A stretch of 64,000 nucleotides of DNA from Oryzomicrobium terrae (GTDB taxonomy: Bacteria > Pseudomonadota > Gammaproteobacteria > Burkholderiales > Rhodocyclaceae): NCBI RefSeq assembly GCF_008274805.1, contig NZ_CP022579.1, positions 1,612,001 to 1,676,000 on the forward strand, in the 5' to 3' direction. The notes beneath the pieces are model-generated. The model was not told the origin of the DNA. It ran no database searches and worked only from the letters and a program-made list of their open reading frames with translations. Shown piece by piece: positions 26,814 to 36,702 of this stretch. The position numbers and the translations under genes were made by a program. Position 1 is the first letter of the stretch; each line of letters begins with the position of its first letter.

Positions 26814-29303
26814 ATGAGACTGGTGTCGATTGCGTTCGCCCTGGGGGTGTTGCTGCTGCAACTCCAGGGCCATCTGCCCCCCTGGTCCTGGCTGACGCTG
26901 CTCCTGCTGGCGAGCCTGGGCGGGGCGGCAGCCGCCTTGCGTGTCCGGCGGCTGCAGCAAGTGGGTCAGGGGCGCGGCCGGGGGACGCATGCGCGCTGGG
27001 CGAGCCTCTTGCTCCTGGCCTGCTTTGCCGCGCTGGCCGGATTTTCCTGGAGCGCTTGGCGGGCTGGCCTTGCCCTGTCCAGCCAGCTTGCCGCCGCCGA
27101 CGAGGGGCGCGACTTCGTCGTCACCGGCATCGTCAGCCGCATGCCGCAGAACACCGCCCTGGGCATCCGCTTTCAACTCGATGTGGAACAGCTCGACCCG
27201 GCCGGGCCGCTGCCCGGCCAGGCGGCACCGATTTCCATGCCCCAGCGCTTGTCGTTGGGATGGTGGGGCGGGCGGCGCCAGGGGGCCGTCGCCGAATCGG
27301 AGGAGCGGCATAGACCGGTGGTTCACGCCGGTGAGCGCTGGCGCCTGACGGTGCGCCTGAAGCGTCCCCATGGTTTGCGCAATCCTGGCGGCTTCGATGC
27401 CGAGGCCTGGATGCTGGAGCGCGGGATCGATGCCACTGGCACTGTCCGTCTGGCGCAGGAGCGCCTGTCACCTTTCGTGATTCGTCCCGACACCACCATT
27501 GAGCGGGTGCGCGAGGCGGTGCGCGATCGGTTTCTCGCCACCTTGCCCGCCCAGGACTATCCCTGGGGAGGCGTGCTCGCCGCCCTGGCCGTGGGCGATC
27601 AGCAGGCGGTGGATGCGGGCCAGTGGCGGATTTTCGCCCGTACCGGGACGACCCACCTGATGTCGATTTCCGGCCTGCATGTCACCCTGGTGGCGGGGTT
27701 GGTGGCAGCCCTGGCCGGCGCCCTGTGGCGCCGCCATCCCCGTGCCCCCCTGGGCCTGGCGACCCCCCGGGCCGCGGCCCTGGCCGGGGTGGCCGCTGCC
27801 TTGATCTACACCCTCCTGGCCGGAGCCGGAGTGCCGGCGTTGCGCACCTTGTCCATGGTGGGCGTCGCCGCCCTGGCCGTGGCGACCGGGCGCGCCACCC
27901 GGGTCAGCCGGGTATTGGCGGCCGCCTTGCTGGCAGTGCTGCTGCTCGATCCCTGGGCGGTACTGGCGCCGGGGTTCTGGCTTTCCTTCGGCGCGGTGGC
28001 GGCACTGCTGTACGTCGGGGCCGGGCGCGTGGGCCACCACGCCAGCCCCACGCCGGAAGCGGTGCCGGCCTGGCGCCGCCGGGTGCGGGACGAACTGGCA
28101 CGCTTCGGCCTGACCCAGTGGGCGGCCACCTGGGCAACCCTGCCCCTGGTGCTGTTCTTCTTCCAGCAGTTCTCCCTAGTCTCCCCCCTGGCCAACGCCG
28201 TCGCCATTCCACTCATCAGCCTGGTGGTCACCCCATTGGCCCTGCTTGCTGCCCTGGTGCCCCTCGATAGCCTGCTGTGGCTGGCCCATGGCGTACTGGC
28301 ACCACTCATGGCGGCGCTGCAGTGGCTGGCCGACCAGCCCCTGTCCGTGTGGACGCCGGCGGCTCCCCCTGCCTGGAGCGTGGCCCTGGCCTTGGCGGGT
28401 TTGGGATTGCTGCTCGCCCCCCGCGGCCTCCCCGGCCGTCTGGCCGGGCTGGTCTTGCTGCTGCCGGCGTTGTCCTGGCCGGCGTCCCGCCCGGCGCCGG
28501 GCGAGGCCTGGGTCACCGTGCTCGATGTCGGCCAGGGACTGGCAGTGGTGGTGCGCACCGCCGAGCACACCCTGGCCTACGATACCGGGCCGGCCTGGGG
28601 GGAAACGGATGCCGGCGAGCGGGTGGTCGCCCCCTATTTGCGCACCCTGGGGGTGGATCGCCTGGATGGGCTGGTGGTGACCCATTCGGACCGGGACCAC
28701 TCCGGTGGAGCGCTGTCGGTGCTCGCTGCCTTTCCCGTCGACTGGCTGGTGGATACTCTGCCACCGGCCCATCCTGCCCACCATTTCGATGTCCCGCGCA
28801 GCGCCTGCGAAGCCGGGCTGGCCTGGGTGTGGGACGGCGTTCGCTTTACCGTGCTGCATCCACGCCCCGAGGCCCTGGTGCCCGGGGTCAAGCCGAATCG
28901 GCAGAGTTGCGTGATGATGGTGGAGGCTGGCGGGAGCCGCCTGCTGCTCGCTGCCGACCTGGAAATTCCCGATGAGGCCGCGGTGGTGGGGCGCAGCGGC
29001 AGCGCCTTGGCGGCCGATGTGCTGGTGGCGCCGCACCATGGCGGCGCCAGCGCCTCGTCCCCGGCCTTCGTCGCTGCAGTACGGCCGGCCCAAGTGGTGT
29101 TTTCCGCCGGCTATCGCAACCGCTTTGCCCATCCGCGGAGCGAAGTGGTGGAACGCTACCGACAAATCGGCAGCGTGGTCTGGCGCACCGACCGTGACGG
29201 GGCAATCGGTTTTCGCCTGGGCCCTGCCGGAGTCACGGGCATCGCCGAGCGGCAACGCCAACCGCGTTATTGGGCGACCGCCGACGAGGCATCGGCAAGA
29301 TAG
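26814..29303 (+). CDS. comEC: DNA internalization competence protein ComEC/Rec2
   Basis: Inner-membrane channel that takes single-stranded DNA into the cytoplasm during natural transformation. The 829-residue protein has the N-terminal helices and DUF4131 OB-like region, the Competence multi-helix core with GTTHLMSISGLHVTLVAG, and a C-terminal metallo-beta-lactamase-like domain with DVGQGLAVVV, THSDRDHSGG (metal ligands) and PHHGGASASSPAFV. All three parts are complete. A TTTAAT -10-like box at 26800-26805 lies only 9 bases before the ATG, so the leader may be very short. The presence of full-length ComEC suggests competence potential. Confidence 0.95.
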   Translation: MRLVSIAFALGVLLLQLQGHLPPWSWLTLLLLASLGGAAAALRVRRLQQVGQGRGRGTHARWASLLLLACFAALAGFSWSAWRAGLALSSQLAAADEGRDFVVTGIVSRMPQNTALGIRFQLDVEQLDPAGPLPGQAAPISMPQRLSLGWWGGRRQGAVAESEERHRPVVHAGERWRLTVRLKRPHGLRNPGGFDAEAWMLERGIDATGTVRLAQERLSPFVIRPDTTIERVREAVRDRFLATLPAQDYPWGGVLAALAVGDQQAVDAGQWRIFARTGTTHLMSISGLHVTLVAGLVAALAGALWRRHPRAPLGLATPRAAALAGVAAALIYTLLAGAGVPALRTLSMVGVAALAVATGRATRVSRVLAAALLAVLLLDPWAVLAPGFWLSFGAVAALLYVGAGRVGHHASPTPEAVPAWRRRVRDELARFGLTQWAATWATLPLVLFFFQQFSLVSPLANAVAIPLISLVVTPLALLAALVPLDSLLWLAHGVLAPLMAALQWLADQPLSVWTPAAPPAWSVALALAGLGLLLAPRGLPGRLAGLVLLLPALSWPASRPAPGEAWVTVLDVGQGLAVVVRTAEHTLAYDTGPAWGETDAGERVVAPYLRTLGVDRLDGLVVTHSDRDHSGGALSVLAAFPVDWLVDTLPPAHPAHHFDVPRSACEAGLAWVWDGVRFTVLHPRPEALVPGVKPNRQSCVMMVEAGGSRLLLAADLEIPDEAAVVGRSGSALAADVLVAPHHGGASASSPAFVAAVRPAQVVFSAGYRNRFAHPRSEVVERYRQIGSVVWRTDRDGAIGFRLGPAGVTGIAERQRQPRYWATADEASAR

Positions 29304-29720
29304 CGCGCATTGCTCCCGTTCTGGATGCGGAATCCGACCTAACCCCAACGCGGGTAAGGACTTTTTCGCTTGTCCACAGAATCTGTGGATAACTTTGTGA
29401 ATAAGTTTGGGATGAGTGACCTAAGTCGCCTTTCCGCAAGGGTTTTTGTTACTTTGCCTATAAACCGGGCTCGAAAAATACTTATTTAAAAACAGTTGGT
29501 TAATATATTTTTTTGCTTGGCAAGAGGGTTTTGTAACCGATCTATAACTTTTGTTACAGGGAGCGGTGCGGTGTGCATAAGTCAAGGCCTTGGGGCAACT
29601 TTTTTTCCCGAAAAAGTCTTGACAGACCCGATTGCGCGCTGGGTAAAACCATTGCCCCCGGCAGGCGTATGGCATTGGTTATGATGGCGGCTGATTCGTT
29701 GTTGGGAAACTAATTACGCC
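29304..29720. other. AT-rich intergenic region with DnaA-like boxes and repeats
   Basis: No gene is supported in this 417-base gap. It is much richer in A/T than the rest of the window, mostly between 29440 and 29610. Besides the cluster at 29370-29404 it has a fourth DnaA-like box TGTGCATAA (29572-29580), three related 9-mers TTTTGTTAC, TTTTGTAAC and TTTTGTTAC (29444, 29529, 29549), and an ACTTTTT / AAAAAGT stem (29598-29617). TTGACA at 29619 is a good -35 box, but the nearest -10 candidate, TAAAAC, has a 19-base spacer. Confidence 0.6.
29370..29404. promoter_or_regulatory. Cluster of three DnaA-box-like sites
   Basis: TTGTCCACA (29370-29378, one mismatch from TTATCCACA), TGTGGATAA (29384-29392, perfect box on the minus strand) and TGTGAATAA (29396-29404, matching TTATNCACA on the minus strand) lie within 35 bases. 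The first two face each other with a 5-base gap. Next to them is the AT-rich segment 29440-29560. Confidence 0.6.
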
Positions 29721-30671
29721 ATGTCCGCGTTAAGCGCTCTGCACCGTTGGTGGTCCCGGTTTGCCGGCGACACCAAAGATCAACACGCGGCAGTCGCTCC
29801 GGCTGCCCGTCCTGAGCCACGTTTGCATCAGGTGTTATGCGCCGACCCCCACGGTCTGCACCGCATGGCCTATGCCGAATGGGGCGATCCGGCCAATCCA
29901 CGGGTGGTGGTATGCGTCCATGGCCTGACCCGCAATGGCCGGGATTTCGATGAACTGGCCCGAGTGCTGGCGACGGATTACCGGGTGATCTGCCCCGACG
30001 TCGTTGGCCGTGGGCGCAGCGAATGGCTCAACGATCCGGCCGACTACGGTTTTCCCGCCTACATCGCCGACATGGTGACCCTGGTGGCCCGGCTCAACGT
30101 GGAGTCGGTGGACTGGGTCGGTACGTCCATGGGCGGCCTGATCGGCATGTTGCTGGCAGCCCAGCCCAAATCGCCGATCCGCCGTCTGGTGCTGAACGAT
30201 GTGGGGCCGGTGATTACCGCCGAATCCTTGCAACGCATTGGCCAGTACGTTGGCAATGCCCCTCGTTTTCCCAGTTTTGTCGATGCGGTGACCTATGTGC
30301 GTACCGTTTCGGCTCCCTTCGGTCCGTTGAGTGACGCTCAATGGCAGGCCTTGACCGAGCACTGTGTTCGCCAGGGCGACGATGGGCAGTGGGCCATGGT
30401 CTACGACCCGGGTATTGGCGCGCCTTTCCGTAACGCTTTTGTCTATGCCGACGTGGACCTGTGGGGCTTTTATGAGGCGCTGCGGATTCCCGTGTTGGCC
30501 ATTCGCGGTGCCGAATCCGACCTGCTCACGCCAGATGTTCACCGTGCCATGGGCGCGCGGGGCCCCCGGGCGCAATTGGCGGAAATCCCCGGGGTCGGCC
30601 ATGCACCCATGTTTACCGACGCCGGCCAGATCCGGCTGATTACCGAGTTTTTGCGTCAGGAGTCGCAATGA
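29721..30671 (+). CDS. Alpha/beta hydrolase
   Basis: The 316-residue protein has an alpha/beta hydrolase fold: oxyanion HGLTRNGRDFD, a strand ending in PDVVGRGRS, nucleophile elbow GTSMGG (Ser), an acid in the GAESDLLTPD loop and the catalytic His in PGVGHAP. The ~35 residues before the fold are polar and not signal-peptide-like. Substrate is unknown; the GTSMGGLIGM type is often an esterase or lactonase. It overlaps the next hydrolase gene by 4 bases (ATGA), so the two are coupled. Confidence 0.87.
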   Translation: MSALSALHRWWSRFAGDTKDQHAAVAPAARPEPRLHQVLCADPHGLHRMAYAEWGDPANPRVVVCVHGLTRNGRDFDELARVLATDYRVICPDVVGRGRSEWLNDPADYGFPAYIADMVTLVARLNVESVDWVGTSMGGLIGMLLAAQPKSPIRRLVLNDVGPVITAESLQRIGQYVGNAPRFPSFVDAVTYVRTVSAPFGPLSDAQWQALTEHCVRQGDDGQWAMVYDPGIGAPFRNAFVYADVDLWGFYEALRIPVLAIRGAESDLLTPDVHRAMGARGPRAQLAEIPGVGHAPMFTDAGQIRLITEFLRQESQ

Positions 30672-31784: not shown

Positions 31785-32342
31785 ATGCGCTGGCGCCTTC
31801 TTCTTGGAAAAACGGTTTTTGCACTGGCTGTTTCCTGTCTTGCCACTCTTTCCGCCCAGGCGGTGGAATATCCGATCGGTACGCCACAGCAGCGCGCCGG
31901 TATGGAAATCGGCGCGGTCTACCTGCAGGCGGTGACCATGGAGCCGGACGGCATGATGCGCAAGGTGGAAGAATCGGACATCCACCTGGAGGCCGACATC
32001 CACGCCATGGGCGGCAACCCCAACGGGTTCGAGGAAGGGGCCTGGATTCCCTACCTGGTGGTCAAGTACGAAGTCACCAAGATCGGCGGCACCAACCAGA
32101 AGGTGAGCGGCGAGATGATGCCCATGGTGGCCAACGACGGTCCCCACTACGGCGACAACATCAAGCTGTTTGGCCCGGGCAAGTACCACGTCAAGTACAC
32201 CGTGATGCCGCCTTCCGCCAACCCCCACTCCCATTTCGGCCGTCATACCGATCGCCTCACCGGTGTCCGCCCCTGGTTCAAACCCTTCGACGTGGAATAC
32301 GAATTCACTTACGTCGGCGTGGGTAAAAAAGGCGGGTACTAA
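31785..32342 (+). CDS. ftrA: Periplasmic iron-binding protein, P19/FtrA family
   Basis: Periplasmic protein of ferrous-iron uptake. The 185 residues have a Sec signal (MRWRLLLGKTVFALAVSCLATLSAQA) and then the P19/Tp34 domain: EYPIGTPQQRAGMEIGAVYLQ, the His/Met copper- or iron-site motif ESDIHLEADIHA, the MMPMVANDGPHYGDNIKL segment and NPHSHFGRHTD. In the Brucella/Bordetella FtrABCD systems this component binds iron and works with a cupredoxin, an Ftr1 permease and a 4Fe-4S membrane protein, all of which follow here. The start follows GGGAG at a normal distance. First gene of the operon. Confidence 0.9.
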   Translation: MRWRLLLGKTVFALAVSCLATLSAQAVEYPIGTPQQRAGMEIGAVYLQAVTMEPDGMMRKVEESDIHLEADIHAMGGNPNGFEEGAWIPYLVVKYEVTKIGGTNQKVSGEMMPMVANDGPHYGDNIKLFGPGKYHVKYTVMPPSANPHSHFGRHTDRLTGVRPWFKPFDVEYEFTYVGVGKKGGY

Positions 32343-32345
32343 ACC

Positions 32346-33995
32346 ATGGCCTCTCAACCCCTGTGGCGGCCCGTTCGACTGGCCGCAATGGTGGCGCTCG
32401 CCCTGACGCCGGCCCTCGGTCAGGCCGCCAGCGACACCGATGTGCGCAAATTGCTGGAAAGACTCAACCAACGGCTCGACAAGCTGGAGCAGCGCAACGC
32501 CGAACTTGAGGCCGAATTGAAGGCTGCCCGGGCGGCGCCAGTTTCTGCGGTTGCCGGCTCGGCAGCGGCGACCAAGGGCCAGACCCGGGCATCCACCGCA
32601 TCCGTTTCCTCCACCCAGCCCGGCCTGGCCGGTCAAGCACCGGCTCCGGTTTCCCTGGAAGAGCGGGTCAAGAGCCTGGAAGAGCAGAACGCCAAGGTGG
32701 CCGCGGGGCTCAGCCGTGAAGACGTGAGCGAGAACGAGCCCGACCTGACGGCACGCCTCAAGGCGGTGGAATACCAGTCCCTGGGCATGCTCAAGCAGGC
32801 CCGCATGGCCGAGGCTCTGGAAGGCATTACCGCCGGCATGAGCCTGTCCACCGTGGCCCAGCGTCCCGGAAACGGCAGCGGCCCGAATGGCACCGATCTC
32901 TACGGCCAGTCCAACAACAGCCAGCTCAACTATCGGGGCGACGTCTATGTAACCCTGCCCCTGGACAACATCGGCGACATCGAGAGCCGCATCTTCGCCC
33001 AGTTCCGCTTTGGCCAGGGCTTTGGCCTCAACAACCTGTACAGCTTCTCCAAGCCTAATGCCACCGCCTTCCGCGTTACCGGCCTCAACCCGGACGACTC
33101 GGTGGCAATCCTCGGCCAGGCCTGGTACCAGGCGACCATCCCCTTGCCCTACGGCGGCTTCAAGCCCCACTCCAAGGAAAGCCTGGAAGTCACCTTCGGC
33201 AAGATGGACCCCTTCGTCTTCTTCGACCAGAACGCCGCCGCCAACGACGAGACCAAGCAGTTTCTCAATACCGCCTTCGTGCACAACCCGCTGCTTGATG
33301 CCGGTGGCGACATCGGCGTCGATGCCAACGGCTTCGCGCCGGGCTTCCGCATGTCCTACGCCAACAGCGTGAACAAGCGCGAAGTGTGGCGGCTGTCGGC
33401 CGGTGTATTCGGAGCCGGACGGGGCGCCAACTACTCCCGCTTCTTCTCTTCGCCCTTGCTGATTGCCCAGGCCGAAACCCAGCAGCGCTTCTTCGGCGGT
33501 CTGCTCGGCAACTACCGCCTCTATTACTGGCGCAACGGCCAGGCGCCGACCTTCGAAGACGGCAGCGCCAAGCGCTCCGGCTGGGGTATTTCGGTGGATC
33601 AGCGGGTCGGCGATACCGTCACCCTGTTCGGCCGCTACGGCCAGCTGGTGCAGAATACCGGCGCCCGCTTCGACCGTGCTTTGACCCTGGGGGCCGAGAT
33701 CAATGGTTCCAACTGGAACCGGGGTGGCGATTCCCTCGGTATCGGCCTGGGCATGATGCGCGCCGCCAACGACTTCCGCAGCGTGTCCAGCCTGATCGAC
33801 GTGGATGGCAACGGCGTGCCCGACTACGGCTTTGCCGCCAAGGGCAGCGAGCGGCTGGTCGAGGTGTATTACCGCTATCGCATCAACAAGCAGTTCGAGT
33901 TGTCGCCCGACTTGCAGTACATCGCACGGCCGGCCGGCAACGCCGACAGCAAGGCGATTACCCTGATGGGCCTGCGTGCCCAGCTGACCTACTGA
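32346..33995 (+). CDS. Outer-membrane porin with N-terminal coiled coil
   Basis: The 549-residue protein has a signal peptide (ending GQAAS), a predicted coiled coil (LLERLNQRLDKLEQRNAELEAELKAA), a Ser/Thr/Ala linker and a second helical segment. About 400 residues of porin-like beta barrel follow, ending in the C-terminal aromatic MGLRAQLTY typical of outer-membrane proteins. The barrel resembles the OprB/carbohydrate-selective porin group (SQLNYRGDVYVTLPLDN, FGKMDPFVFFDQN). It lies 3 bases after the P19 gene and 15 bases before the cupredoxin gene, so it is part of the iron operon. A role in passing ferrous iron or another substrate through the outer membrane is inferred. Confidence 0.85.
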   Translation: MASQPLWRPVRLAAMVALALTPALGQAASDTDVRKLLERLNQRLDKLEQRNAELEAELKAARAAPVSAVAGSAAATKGQTRASTASVSSTQPGLAGQAPAPVSLEERVKSLEEQNAKVAAGLSREDVSENEPDLTARLKAVEYQSLGMLKQARMAEALEGITAGMSLSTVAQRPGNGSGPNGTDLYGQSNNSQLNYRGDVYVTLPLDNIGDIESRIFAQFRFGQGFGLNNLYSFSKPNATAFRVTGLNPDDSVAILGQAWYQATIPLPYGGFKPHSKESLEVTFGKMDPFVFFDQNAAANDETKQFLNTAFVHNPLLDAGGDIGVDANGFAPGFRMSYANSVNKREVWRLSAGVFGAGRGANYSRFFSSPLLIAQAETQQRFFGGLLGNYRLYYWRNGQAPTFEDGSAKRSGWGISVDQRVGDTVTLFGRYGQLVQNTGARFDRALTLGAEINGSNWNRGGDSLGIGLGMMRAANDFRSVSSLIDVDGNGVPDYGFAAKGSERLVEVYYRYRINKQFELSPDLQYIARPAGNADSKAITLMGLRAQLTY

Positions 33996-34010
33996 TCCGG
34001 AGGCTTGCCC

Positions 34011-34373
34011 GTGAAATCCATCCGTCTTCCCCGTATCCCCCGACTGCTCCTGGCACTGGCCGCCCTGGTGGCGGGAGCCACGGTGAGCGCGCCGCTCCTG
34101 GCGGACGAACTGCCCACCTTTCCTCTCGTGATCCGCGCCGGCAAGTTCTATCCCGACGTGATCGAAGTGCCGGCCAACACCAAGTGGAAGCTGACCATCC
34201 ACAACGAGGGCCCGGGGGCCGAGGAGTTCGAGAGCATCGAGCTGCGCAAGGAGAAGGTGCTGGCCCCCGGGGCCAGCAGCTTCCTCGTCTTCGCACCGAT
34301 GAAGCCGGGCACCTACAAGTTCTTCGGCGATTTCCACCCGGAAACCGCCCAGGGCAAGATCATCGCCAAGTAA
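34011..34373 (+). CDS. ftrB: Periplasmic cupredoxin-like protein, FtrB type
   Basis: A 120-residue protein with a signal peptide ending near SAPLLADE and a cupredoxin-like beta fold: LVIRAGKFYPDVIEVPANTKWKLTIHNEGPGAEEFES and KPGTYKFFGDFHPE. This EfeO-cupredoxin-type domain lacks the usual Cys ligand but has His and Glu residues. In FtrABCD systems the cupredoxin is thought to oxidise Fe2+ for the permease. GTG at 34011 after GGAGG (33999-34003) is preferred over the TTG at 34005. Confidence 0.85.
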   Translation: MKSIRLPRIPRLLLALAALVAGATVSAPLLADELPTFPLVIRAGKFYPDVIEVPANTKWKLTIHNEGPGAEEFESIELRKEKVLAPGASSFLVFAPMKPGTYKFFGDFHPETAQGKIIAK

Positions 34374-34433
34374 TGCCGCCGTTGCGGCCACTCGCCTTCG
34401 TGTATCGCAGTCTTTGCAGTTGGAGTTCGCATC

Positions 34434-35279
34434 ATGGGAAATGCCCTGTTCATCGTCTGGCGTGAAAGCCTGGAAGCCATGCTGGTGGTGGGGGTGCTCT
34501 ATGCCTGGCTGGCGCGCAATGCTCCGGAGCGCCTGCGCGCCCTCTGGGCCGGCACTGCCGGGGGGCTGGCCCTGGCCGGCGGCCTGGCCTACGCCATCGT
34601 CAGTGTTCAGGACGAGTTGTCGGGCGAGGCGGTGGAGTGGTTTCAGACCGGGGCCCTGCTGCTCGCTGCGGTACTGATCGCCCAGATGGTGCTATGGATG
34701 CAGAAGCACGGTCGGCACATGAAGAAGAGTATCGAGGCCGACGTGGCGGCGGCGTCCGAAAAGGCCGGTGGCCTGGGCATCGCCCTGGTGGCGGCCCTGG
34801 CCATCGGCCGCGAAGGGGCCGAGACGGTGATCTTCCTCTACGGCGTCGGCCTGGAGCAGGGCAGTGCCCTGACCACCCTGAGCGGTGCGGCCATCGGCCT
34901 GGCGCTGGCCGGGCTGACCGCCTGGGCGGTCAGCCGCGGCCTGCGCGGCCTCACCTACGCAACCTTCTTCCGCGTCACCAGCCTGCTGCTGCTGATGTTC
35001 GGTGCCTCCCTGCTGGTGGCCGGCATCGACCGGCTGGTGGGGGCCGGTCTACTGCCGGCCCTGGTGGATCCGCTCTGGGACACCTCGGCCCTGCTCGACG
35101 ACACCAGTGGCCTGGGCAAGCTGCTCTATGCCGTGCTCGGTTACCGGGCCATGCCGTCCCTCAGCCTGGTGCTGGCCTACGCTGCCTACTGGGCCGTGGT
35201 GTTCCTGGTCGGTCGGATCGGTAGTGCGCCCGCCAAGCCCGCCATGCCTATGCCTGCCCGGGAGAATGGTCGTGGCTAA
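34434..35279 (+). CDS. ftrC: Ftr1-type iron permease
   Basis: Inner-membrane iron permease with about seven helices, 281 residues. Both REXXE iron-binding motifs are present: RESLE (residues 10-14) and REGAE (about 126-130). The family is homologous to fungal Ftr1 and bacterial EfeU and takes ferric iron produced by a periplasmic ferroxidase. It lies 60 bases after the cupredoxin gene and overlaps the 4Fe-4S gene by 8 bases. Confidence 0.93.
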   Translation: MGNALFIVWRESLEAMLVVGVLYAWLARNAPERLRALWAGTAGGLALAGGLAYAIVSVQDELSGEAVEWFQTGALLLAAVLIAQMVLWMQKHGRHMKKSIEADVAAASEKAGGLGIALVAALAIGREGAETVIFLYGVGLEQGSALTTLSGAAIGLALAGLTAWAVSRGLRGLTYATFFRVTSLLLLMFGASLLVAGIDRLVGAGLLPALVDPLWDTSALLDDTSGLGKLLYAVLGYRAMPSLSLVLAYAAYWAVVFLVGRIGSAPAKPAMPMPARENGRG

Positions 35280-36702
35280 GGCCGCCGTCATCCCCATCGT
35301 TCCGGTCGGACAGCGCGCGGCGCCTTCACCCATGCCGGCCACCTGGCTGGCCCGGCTTGGGGAAGCGATGCGCCGTCACCGCCGCATCATCCTGGCCATC
35401 CAGTGGGTGGTCATTGTCTTTTATGTCGTCCTGGTCACAGTACCGGCCTTCCTACCCCTGCCGGAAACCGGCGCCACCATCGTCTCCAACTTGACCCTGG
35501 CCGCCCAGTTCGTCTTCTGGGGCATCTGGTGGCCCTTCGTCATCTTCACCACCCTGTTCGCCGGCCGGGTCTGGTGCGGTGTGTTCTGCCCCGAAGGGGC
35601 CCTGGCCGAGCATGTCAGCCGCTTCGGCCTTAACCGGCGAGTGCCCAAGTTCATTCGCTGGAGCGGCTGGCCCTTCGTCGCCTTCATCCTGACCACGGTC
35701 TATGGCCAACTGGTGAGTGTCTATGAATACGCCCAGGCAGCCCTGCTGGTGCTGGGCGGCTCGACTCTGGCGGCCATCGCCGTGGGTTTTCTCTATGGCC
35801 GCGAAAAGCGGGTGTGGTGCCGCTACCTGTGCCCGGTGAGCGGCGTGTTCAGCCTGCTCGGCCGGGCGGCGCCGCTCCAGTTCAAGGTGGATCGCCAGGT
35901 ATGGCGCGAGCACCGGCCCAACTTCCGTCTCGAATGTGCGCCCCTGGTGGATGTGAAGGGCATGACCGGCTCCTCCGACTGCCACCTGTGCGGCCAGTGC
36001 AGCGGCTTCCGCGAGGCGGTGCACCTCACCGCCCGCCTGCCCGGCAGCGAAGTGGCCCGGCTGCCGGACGGCGAGGTGTCAAAGTGGGACGCCCGCTTGG
36101 TGGTGTTCGGCATGCTCGGCGTGGCGGTGGGCGCCTTCCAGTGGAGTTCCAGCCCCTGGTTCGTCATGGCCAAGCAGGCCCTGGCCGAGTGGCTGGTGGA
36201 TCGGGAATGGTTCGGCCCCCTGGAGTCGGACATCCCCTGGTGGATCCTGACCCACTATCCGGAGGCCGGCGACGTGTTCACCTGGCTCGATGGCGCCCTG
36301 GTGCTGGGCTACATCGGCGCCATGGCCCTGGTCGTGGGAACCTGGATCAGCCTCTGGCTGGCCCTGGCCGGCCAGCTGACGAAGGGGCCCGGCGACACCT
36401 GGCGCCACGCCGCCCGGCGCCTGGCCTACACCCTGACGCCCCTGGCCGGCCTGGGCATCTTCCTTGGCCTATCGGCCTTGACCGTCACCCTGCTTAAGGC
36501 CGAAGGTCTGCGCTTTCCCTGGCTTGGTAGCGCCCGCGGCATGGTGCTGGCGGTGGGCGTGCTGTGGAGCCTGGGCCTGGCCTGGCGCCAGCTGCATCAC
36601 CGCAACGCCCCCCCGTCGCGTATGGCCGCTGCTTTGACCTGCATGGCCATGGCCGTAGTTCCGGTGGTAGGGAGCTGGATGATGTTGTTCTACGTCTGGT
36701 AA
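35272..36702 (+). CDS. ftrD: 4Fe-4S membrane protein of the Ftr iron system
   Basis: A 476-residue polytopic protein with NapH/NosR-like CxxxCP motifs: WCGVFCPEG (about 101) and WCRYLCPVSG (about 183), plus CHLCGQC (about 237), which can hold 4Fe-4S clusters. It should pass electrons across the inner membrane. In FtrABCD this component follows the permease and may reduce or recycle iron or the cupredoxin; the exact role is unproven. GTG at 35272 has GGAG 8 bases upstream; ATG at 35266 is too close to it. It overlaps the permease stop. Confidence 0.85.
   Translation: MAKAAVIPIVPVGQRAAPSPMPATWLARLGEAMRRHRRIILAIQWVVIVFYVVLVTVPAFLPLPETGATIVSNLTLAAQFVFWGIWWPFVIFTTLFAGRVWCGVFCPEGALAEHVSRFGLNRRVPKFIRWSGWPFVAFILTTVYGQLVSVYEYAQAALLVLGGSTLAAIAVGFLYGREKRVWCRYLCPVSGVFSLLGRAAPLQFKVDRQVWREHRPNFRLECAPLVDVKGMTGSSDCHLCGQCSGFREAVHLTARLPGSEVARLPDGEVSKWDARLVVFGMLGVAVGAFQWSSSPWFVMAKQALAEWLVDREWFGPLESDIPWWILTHYPEAGDVFTWLDGALVLGYIGAMALVVGTWISLWLALAGQLTKGPGDTWRHAARRLAYTLTPLAGLGIFLGLSALTVTLLKAEGLRFPWLGSARGMVLAVGVLWSLGLAWRQLHHRNAPPSRMAAALTCMAMAVVPVVGSWMMLFYVW

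Follow-up and report, generated by a model that had tools for sequence, protein, structure and literature searches.

A probable DARS-type DNA element in the comEC-hydrolase gap of Oryzomicrobium terrae

The function of DARS, the DnaA-reactivating type of regulatory DNA element, has been worked out in Escherichia coli. In excerpts of PMC4245941, PMC8682772 and PMC5742627, ADP-DnaA molecules on boxes I and II of E. coli are described to interact head to head, ADP leaves and apo-DnaA gains ATP, and DARS2 is activated by IHF and Fis. Both E. coli DARSs have a common box spacing with box I opposite to boxes II and III (PMC5742627, excerpt), and the Fis consensus is GnnYAnnnnnTRnnC (PMC8682772, excerpt). 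Sequences similar to DARS1 and DARS2 are found in many proteobacteria according to a passage of PMC10380432, and DARS-like sequences of Vibrio cholerae lie at the E. coli loci according to one of PMC6090056; the conservation of DARS2 is given as E. coli-proximal β- or γ-proteobacteria in part of PMC5742627 and as γ-proteobacteria in part of PMC4245941. In Bacillus subtilis, dispersed DnaA-box clusters outside oriC also affect initiation, which is a likeness, but this organism is without DARS loci, Hda and IHF, and the effect is ascribed to the level of free DnaA (PMC13220808, excerpt). In the portions of the open-access literature consulted, no description was found of copies beside priA or xseA, of an IHF site at +120 or of a box at about +203, which are the subjects of this report together with a stretch of Oryzomicrobium DNA, 29370-29580, that is probably a DARS-type regulatory element.

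The box cluster between comEC and the hydrolase gene

The window, that is, the whole stretch of 64,000 nucleotides analysed here, covers positions 1,612,001-1,676,000 of the one-contig genome (3,526,415 bases) of O. terrae, family Rhodocyclaceae. The gap at 29304-29720 is intergenic and extends from the comEC stop (29303) to the ATG of an alpha/beta hydrolase gene (29721). The original prediction had placed a cluster of DnaA boxes with an inverted pair in this gap, and the box scan located four boxes, one on the plus and three on the minus strand, boxes I and II being the inverted pair (29370-29380 / 29382-29392). The features are as follows, with offsets counted from the first base of box I.

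26814-29303, plus strand: comEC (Pfam Competence, DUF4131, Lactamase_B), whose 3' end adjoins the element
29366-29505, plus strand: full match to the family model R1 (96.1 bits, the highest among the matches listed; this sequence is part of the build)
29370-29404, plus strand: DARS-type core (box I, 5 bases, box II, 3 bases, box III)
29370-29378, plus strand: box I, TTGTCCACA
29384-29392, minus strand: box II, TTATCCACA
29396-29404, minus strand: box III, TTATTCACA
29421-29426 (+51), plus strand: CTAAGT motif, conserved in the alignments, with at most one mismatch in 23 of 30 family loci
29438-29457 (+68), plus strand: AAGGGTTTTTGTTACTTTGC block, conserved in the alignments, holding one T-rich 9-mer
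29456-29470 (+86), plus strand: Fis-like 15-mer, one mismatch to the Fis consensus, read by hand
29490-29502 (+120), plus strand: IHF-like site AAACAGTTGGTTA, two mismatches to WATCAANNNNTTR, degenerate in the window copy
29572-29580 (+202), minus strand: box IV, the distal DnaA box, TTATGCACA, inside the string TGTGCATAAGTCAAG (29572-29586)
29721-30671, plus strand: flanking alpha/beta hydrolase gene (Pfam Abhydrolase_1)

The exact consensus TTATNCACA is found three times in the 64-kb window, always in the comEC-hydrolase gap, and 32 times genome-wide as against 7 for the reversed pattern, so 3 of the 32 are in the gap. Boxes with at most one mismatch number 12 in the window, which is not above chance (mean 10.0, sd 3.0; at least 12 in 29 of 100 shuffles); it is therefore the clustering and the geometry that are unusual, not the number. 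The three T-rich 9-mers that had been reported were also located, TTTTGTTAC at 29444-29452 and 29549-29557 and TTTTGTAAC at 29529-29537, and the AT-rich character of the stretch was borne out by a G + C content of 39% in the model match 29366-29505 versus 57-70% in sampled stretches of the genome. Furthermore, all four boxes are conserved at identical spacing in the other Oryzomicrobium genome examined (G001), as the original prediction required of close relatives. A simple scan found no terminator in the gap.

Comparison with DARS1, DARS2, datA and oriC of E. coli

The window has a three-box core with box I opposite to boxes II and III, and its offsets of 0, 14 and 26 are those of the two DARSs of E. 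coli K-12.

L075:4108 (plus), 4122 (minus), 4134 (minus): boxes of DARS1, offsets 0, 14 and 26
L074:1136 (plus), 1150 (minus), 1162 (minus): boxes of DARS2, offsets 0, 14 and 26

This spacing of boxes I, II and III and its conservation elsewhere had escaped the original prediction, which did not name DARS. On a core consensus of 24 positions the window scores 23, DARS1 22 and DARS2 21, while a scan with the same consensus gave 18 of 24 at best in E. coli datA, where the core geometry is absent, and no match at 18 or more of 24 in E. coli oriC. The 101 genomes of the family contain 51 sites with exact head-to-head pairs at spacers of 0-30, and 49 of them have the 5-base spacer, the other two having spacers of 18 and 23. 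In addition, the core with up to three mismatches was found in 218 of 397 genomes of the phylum, and the reversed control gave 0 among the rows listed.

Comparison beyond the core was made with R1, a 143-position model built from 26 of 31 elements outside E. coli and covering about -6 to +136. DARS1 of E. coli (bioD-uvrB), identical to the window element in the box orientation and spacing of its core, is matched by R1 over the full length (26.3 bits), and it has a degenerate minus-strand box, TTTTTAACA, at +203 (L075:4311; one mismatch to TTWTNCACA), which falls where the class-wide element has its distal box. It differs in its neighbour genes, in a second minus-strand box at +223 and in the absence of an IHF consensus with up to one mismatch from the stretch scanned. 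DARS2 (rppH-mutH) also has the identical core geometry, and beyond the core it too has IHF-like sites and more DnaA boxes, but its IHF-like sites are at +93 and +109 (one mismatch each) versus +118 to +121 in the element, its Fis consensus is at +145 versus a Fis-like site at +86, its exact box at +211 is oppositely oriented, and its core scores only 15.2 bits with R1. E. coli datA resembles the element in having DnaA boxes with an IHF site between them (exact consensus at L097:3810), but in terms of core geometry, the feature compared, it is without the three-box core of the window; R1 gave a partial match of 11.2 bits there, nothing up to an E of 1 in E. coli oriC, and a partial match of 12.2 bits to the oriC-like cluster of the window genome itself.

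The far half of E. coli DARS2, upstream of mutH (L074:1452-1586), has a second, partial R1 match of 19.7 bits, with a core-like stretch at 1452 that scores 18-19 of 24 and an IHF-like AATCAGAGAATTG at 1571 (+119). This stretch may be a relic of the class-wide element.

Copies, homes and conserved parts in the family and the class

Of 41 genomes, 23 gave matches in a BLAST search with the gap, the window genome being one of them; the elements were initially found by this search, which favours ungapped cores. R1 finds matches in 100 of the 101 family genomes (two in 47, three or more, up to 7, in 41, one in 12 and none in 1), although these family matches partly follow from the build with 26 of the 31 elements, and in 163 of 184 genomes of the GTDB class. 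The E-values are rough; the family and class searches used stricter filters with a limit of E 0.001, and at 1e-4 some genomes show fewer matches. Most matches in the class table, nine each, were seen in genomes G460 and G653. Core or element is doubled at short range in G031 (C1:5,094,449 and 5,094,914) and G069 (C1:1,773,498 and 1,778,377), and a 3.5-kb stretch of G382 (C2:1,881,232-1,884,724) holds a diverged array of seven near-repeats, of the form TTGTCCACAGATTTTGTTGGCAAGNNTGTGGATA, that have the core geometry.

The copies have a limited number of homes, with flanking genes assigned by comparison with the genes of the window genome. Among the 31 elements found by BLAST, 11 are at hemE-priA, 16 at exbB and/or xseA, 2 in the comEC-hydrolase gap and 2 unassigned (L021, L038), and among 30 of the best R1 matches in the family, many of which overlap the BLAST set, the counts for hemE-priA, exbB/xseA and comEC are 11, 17 and 2. 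Eighteen one-contig genomes of the family gave 41 R1 matches at E up to 1e-4: 14 at hemE-priA, 16 at xseA, the window copy and 10 unassigned ones, of which nine are weak (E 5.6e-8 to 9.7e-5) and the tenth (G069:1,778,377) is 4.9 kb from an xseA copy. All 14 hemE-priA copies lie no more than about 175 kb from dnaA, at 12.8% of the replichore or less, distances across the contig end (6 of the 14) being uncertain by about 50 kb on account of genome lengths rounded to 0.1 Mb for 13 of the 18 genomes. For the xseA copies the median position is 66% of the replichore (range 37.5-98.5%, n = 16), and E. coli DARS1, from its coordinates, is likewise at 66%. In the wider class, priA adjoins 15 of 29 loci; the flanks of 13 of the 14 others were scanned (all but L149), four of them (L140, L150, L153 and L158) gave no family, and some class loci are near uvrB (L139), polA (L134) or dnaQ (L157).

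The window genome itself has three R1 copies, at 34 kb (66.7 bits), at 2,408 kb (75.3 bits) and in the window (96.1 bits), so the extra copy is the closest to the family model; all three copies are members of that model. The window copy is at 93% of the distance from dnaA to its antipode, near the terminus, and would thus be replicated late. The comEC-hydrolase copy was seen in just the two Oryzomicrobium genomes examined, the window genome and G001. Over the aligned columns, the window copy has 51% identity with the priA copy and 56% with the xseA copy of its own genome, up to 66% with copies from other genera and 90% with its comEC counterpart in G001; the tree of copies, based on few columns and weakly supported, does not single out which of the other two copies of the genome is the parent. 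The boxes at 1,064,088 and 1,064,246 were considered as a further copy and rejected, there being no core.

At the start of the contig lies dnaA (best DnaA match at 418), and a box cluster with an AT-rich stretch lies beside mnmE at G000:C1:3,521,704-3,521,872 (L070:6704-6872), about 4.6 kb before the contig start; this cluster is likely the oriC of the genome. The 29 stretches sampled for GC skew gave positive values from 0.28 to 1.72 Mb, with the exception of 1.06 Mb, and negative values from 1.78 to 3.24 Mb; near the contig ends the skew is slightly negative at 29 kb and 100 kb and positive in the first 20 kb and the last 11 kb. No dif-like site over 19 of 28 was found in the same stretches, which sample the terminus in part, and the single site with 19 is far from the terminus.

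Beyond the core, the 31 aligned elements have in common a CTAAGT-like motif near +51 and an AAGG-TTTTT-TTAC block near +68. The Fis consensus is exact at +86 in 9 of the 31, and the IHF consensus is exact at +118 to +121 in 16 of these 31 elements outside E. coli. A relaxed IHF pattern is present in 24 of 30 family loci and absent from 6, and the same numbers hold for TGTGNAT at +180 to +212; a stricter box test on the 30 loci gave 19 boxes, at +189 to +195 or at +202. The CTAAGT and AAGG-TTTTTGTTAC-TTTGC blocks (29421-29457) are well conserved in the family by the alignments. Both are without a match in the exbB-xseA copy of the window genome, and CTAAGT is without one in its priA copy. To our knowledge, no binder is known for the CTAAGT motif or the AAGGGTTTTTGTTACTTTGC block.

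The 29 class loci all come from families absent from the R1 build and are the best-scoring matches, not a random draw, so the frequencies of the parts in them are upper bounds. A minus-strand box with at most one mismatch is present at +194 to +207 in 29 of the 29, and at +200 to +207 in 28, while only 4 such boxes occur in the 260 bases upstream of the 29 cores. The strict IHF consensus occurs ten times between +35 and +240 of the 29 loci, each time at +120 or +121, and is absent from the upstream control stretch; if one mismatch is allowed, 25 of 34 matches are at +119 to +122, and the control stretch yields 2. The IHF position is inside the R1 model and the distal box is outside of it, since the model ends near +136.

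What the element probably does

The conserved order and spacing of the boxes strongly support DnaA binding as the putative purpose of the element. This part of the original prediction stood, and the classes of site it had offered fit less well than DARS. By analogy with E. coli, boxes I and II, which lie head to head, would each take up ADP-DnaA, and box III would stabilize the complex; the AAA+ domains of the DnaA molecules on boxes I and II would face each other and ADP would leave; and the apo-DnaA would then bind ATP, giving a larger supply of initiation-competent DnaA. A bent complex is suggested by the constant distance of the distal box and the IHF site that lies in between: IHF, perhaps with Fis, would bend the AT-rich arm that joins the core to box IV, so that the distal box meets the core. 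In part of PMC4245941, IHF sites of DARS2 shifted 10 bp from the core are reported to leave moderate activity and a 5-bp shift less; the IHF site of the element lies 10 bp beyond the +109 site of DARS2 as seen from the core, and the tolerance of DARS2 for a 10-bp shift fits the bent complex. The window genome has an Hda match above the curated cut-off, an IHF-beta homologue above the cut-off and a Fis homologue (48% over 67 residues), which make a DnaA cycle of the E. coli kind plausible. The third copy, near the terminus, may add its effect late in the replication round.

Several observations count against the DARS reading. In the window copy the IHF-like site has two mismatches and the Fis-like site one, some copies miss parts (6 of 30 family loci are without the relaxed IHF pattern and 6 of 30 without TGTGNAT), and the 15.2 bits of R1 on the DARS2 core are little above the 12.2 bits for the own oriC-like cluster. 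Moreover, the locus is neither of the two E. coli DARS loci, the flanks being comEC and the hydrolase gene and not uvrB or mutH; in our view the locus characterizes the known examples and does not belong to the mechanism. Titrating DnaA and promoting DnaA-ATP hydrolysis are other roles that a conserved DnaA-box cluster could have.

The main rival, although an unlikely one, is accordingly a site of the datA kind, in which IHF would bend the DNA and ATP-DnaA on the boxes would hydrolyze its ATP, or in which the boxes would simply soak up DnaA. The IHF site among the DnaA boxes of E. coli datA agrees with it, any cluster of strong boxes titrates DnaA, and DARS1, DARS2 and datA make up a large fraction of the titration power of the chromosome according to an excerpt of PMC12371093. 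The head-to-head core with 5-base spacer and box III is, however, the most conserved part of the element, and E. coli datA is without it, which speaks against the titration site like datA in the original prediction.

A promoter of the neighbouring genes under DnaA control, those genes being the hydrolase pair here and priA, xseA or exbB elsewhere, is improbable. The assigned copies are intergenic and often lie just upstream of priA or between the divergent exbB and xseA, as such a role would have it, but the internal geometry is constant while neighbours and orientation vary: in this genome the box IV end faces the hydrolase gene and xseA, whereas the core end faces priA. Nor did a simple consensus scan find a sigma-70-like promoter in 29200-29800. 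DnaA control of the hydrolase operon, as formerly suggested, thus keeps a small chance, weakened by the unrelated genes that the element flanks in both orientations.

A main or secondary origin of replication, which the DnaA boxes and the AT-rich block with TTGTT motifs had suggested, is rejected as most improbable, because the site is flanked on either side by positive sampled skew (1.18 to 1.72 Mb), which turns negative only from 1.78 Mb, so that the inversion looked for near the site is missing from the 29 stretches, the genes of an origin neighbourhood are absent, the oriC-like cluster lies beside mnmE near dnaA, and 88 of the 101 family genomes have two or more R1 matches.

It is conceivable, though we hold it only tentatively, that the element of about 210 bases, consisting of the core, IHF at +120 and the distal box at about +203, is an ancestral class-wide site for recharging DnaA, retained next to priA, the replication-restart gene, in many lineages and present in one or two further places, that DARS1 and DARS2 of E. 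coli are its rearranged descendants, and that Oryzomicrobium added a copy near the terminus; three sites, each timed by replication, would then set the dose of recharging in Oryzomicrobium. A single architecture, in which the IHF position and the distal box are fixed, could be traced through most genomes sampled in the class; E. coli DARS1 lacks the IHF consensus, and its distal box is degenerate. In the family of the window one home is origin-proximal, next to priA, and another is about two thirds of the way along the replichore. The placement of DARS and the action of IHF thereby become open to comparative tests, and to tests with simple deletions, in many species.

The window also contains, at 31785-36702, a probable iron-uptake operon for a P19-type Fe2+ transport protein, a porin-like protein, a small cupredoxin-like protein, an FTR1 permease and a NosR/ferredoxin-like membrane protein, for which the Pfam comparison covered P19 and FTR1.
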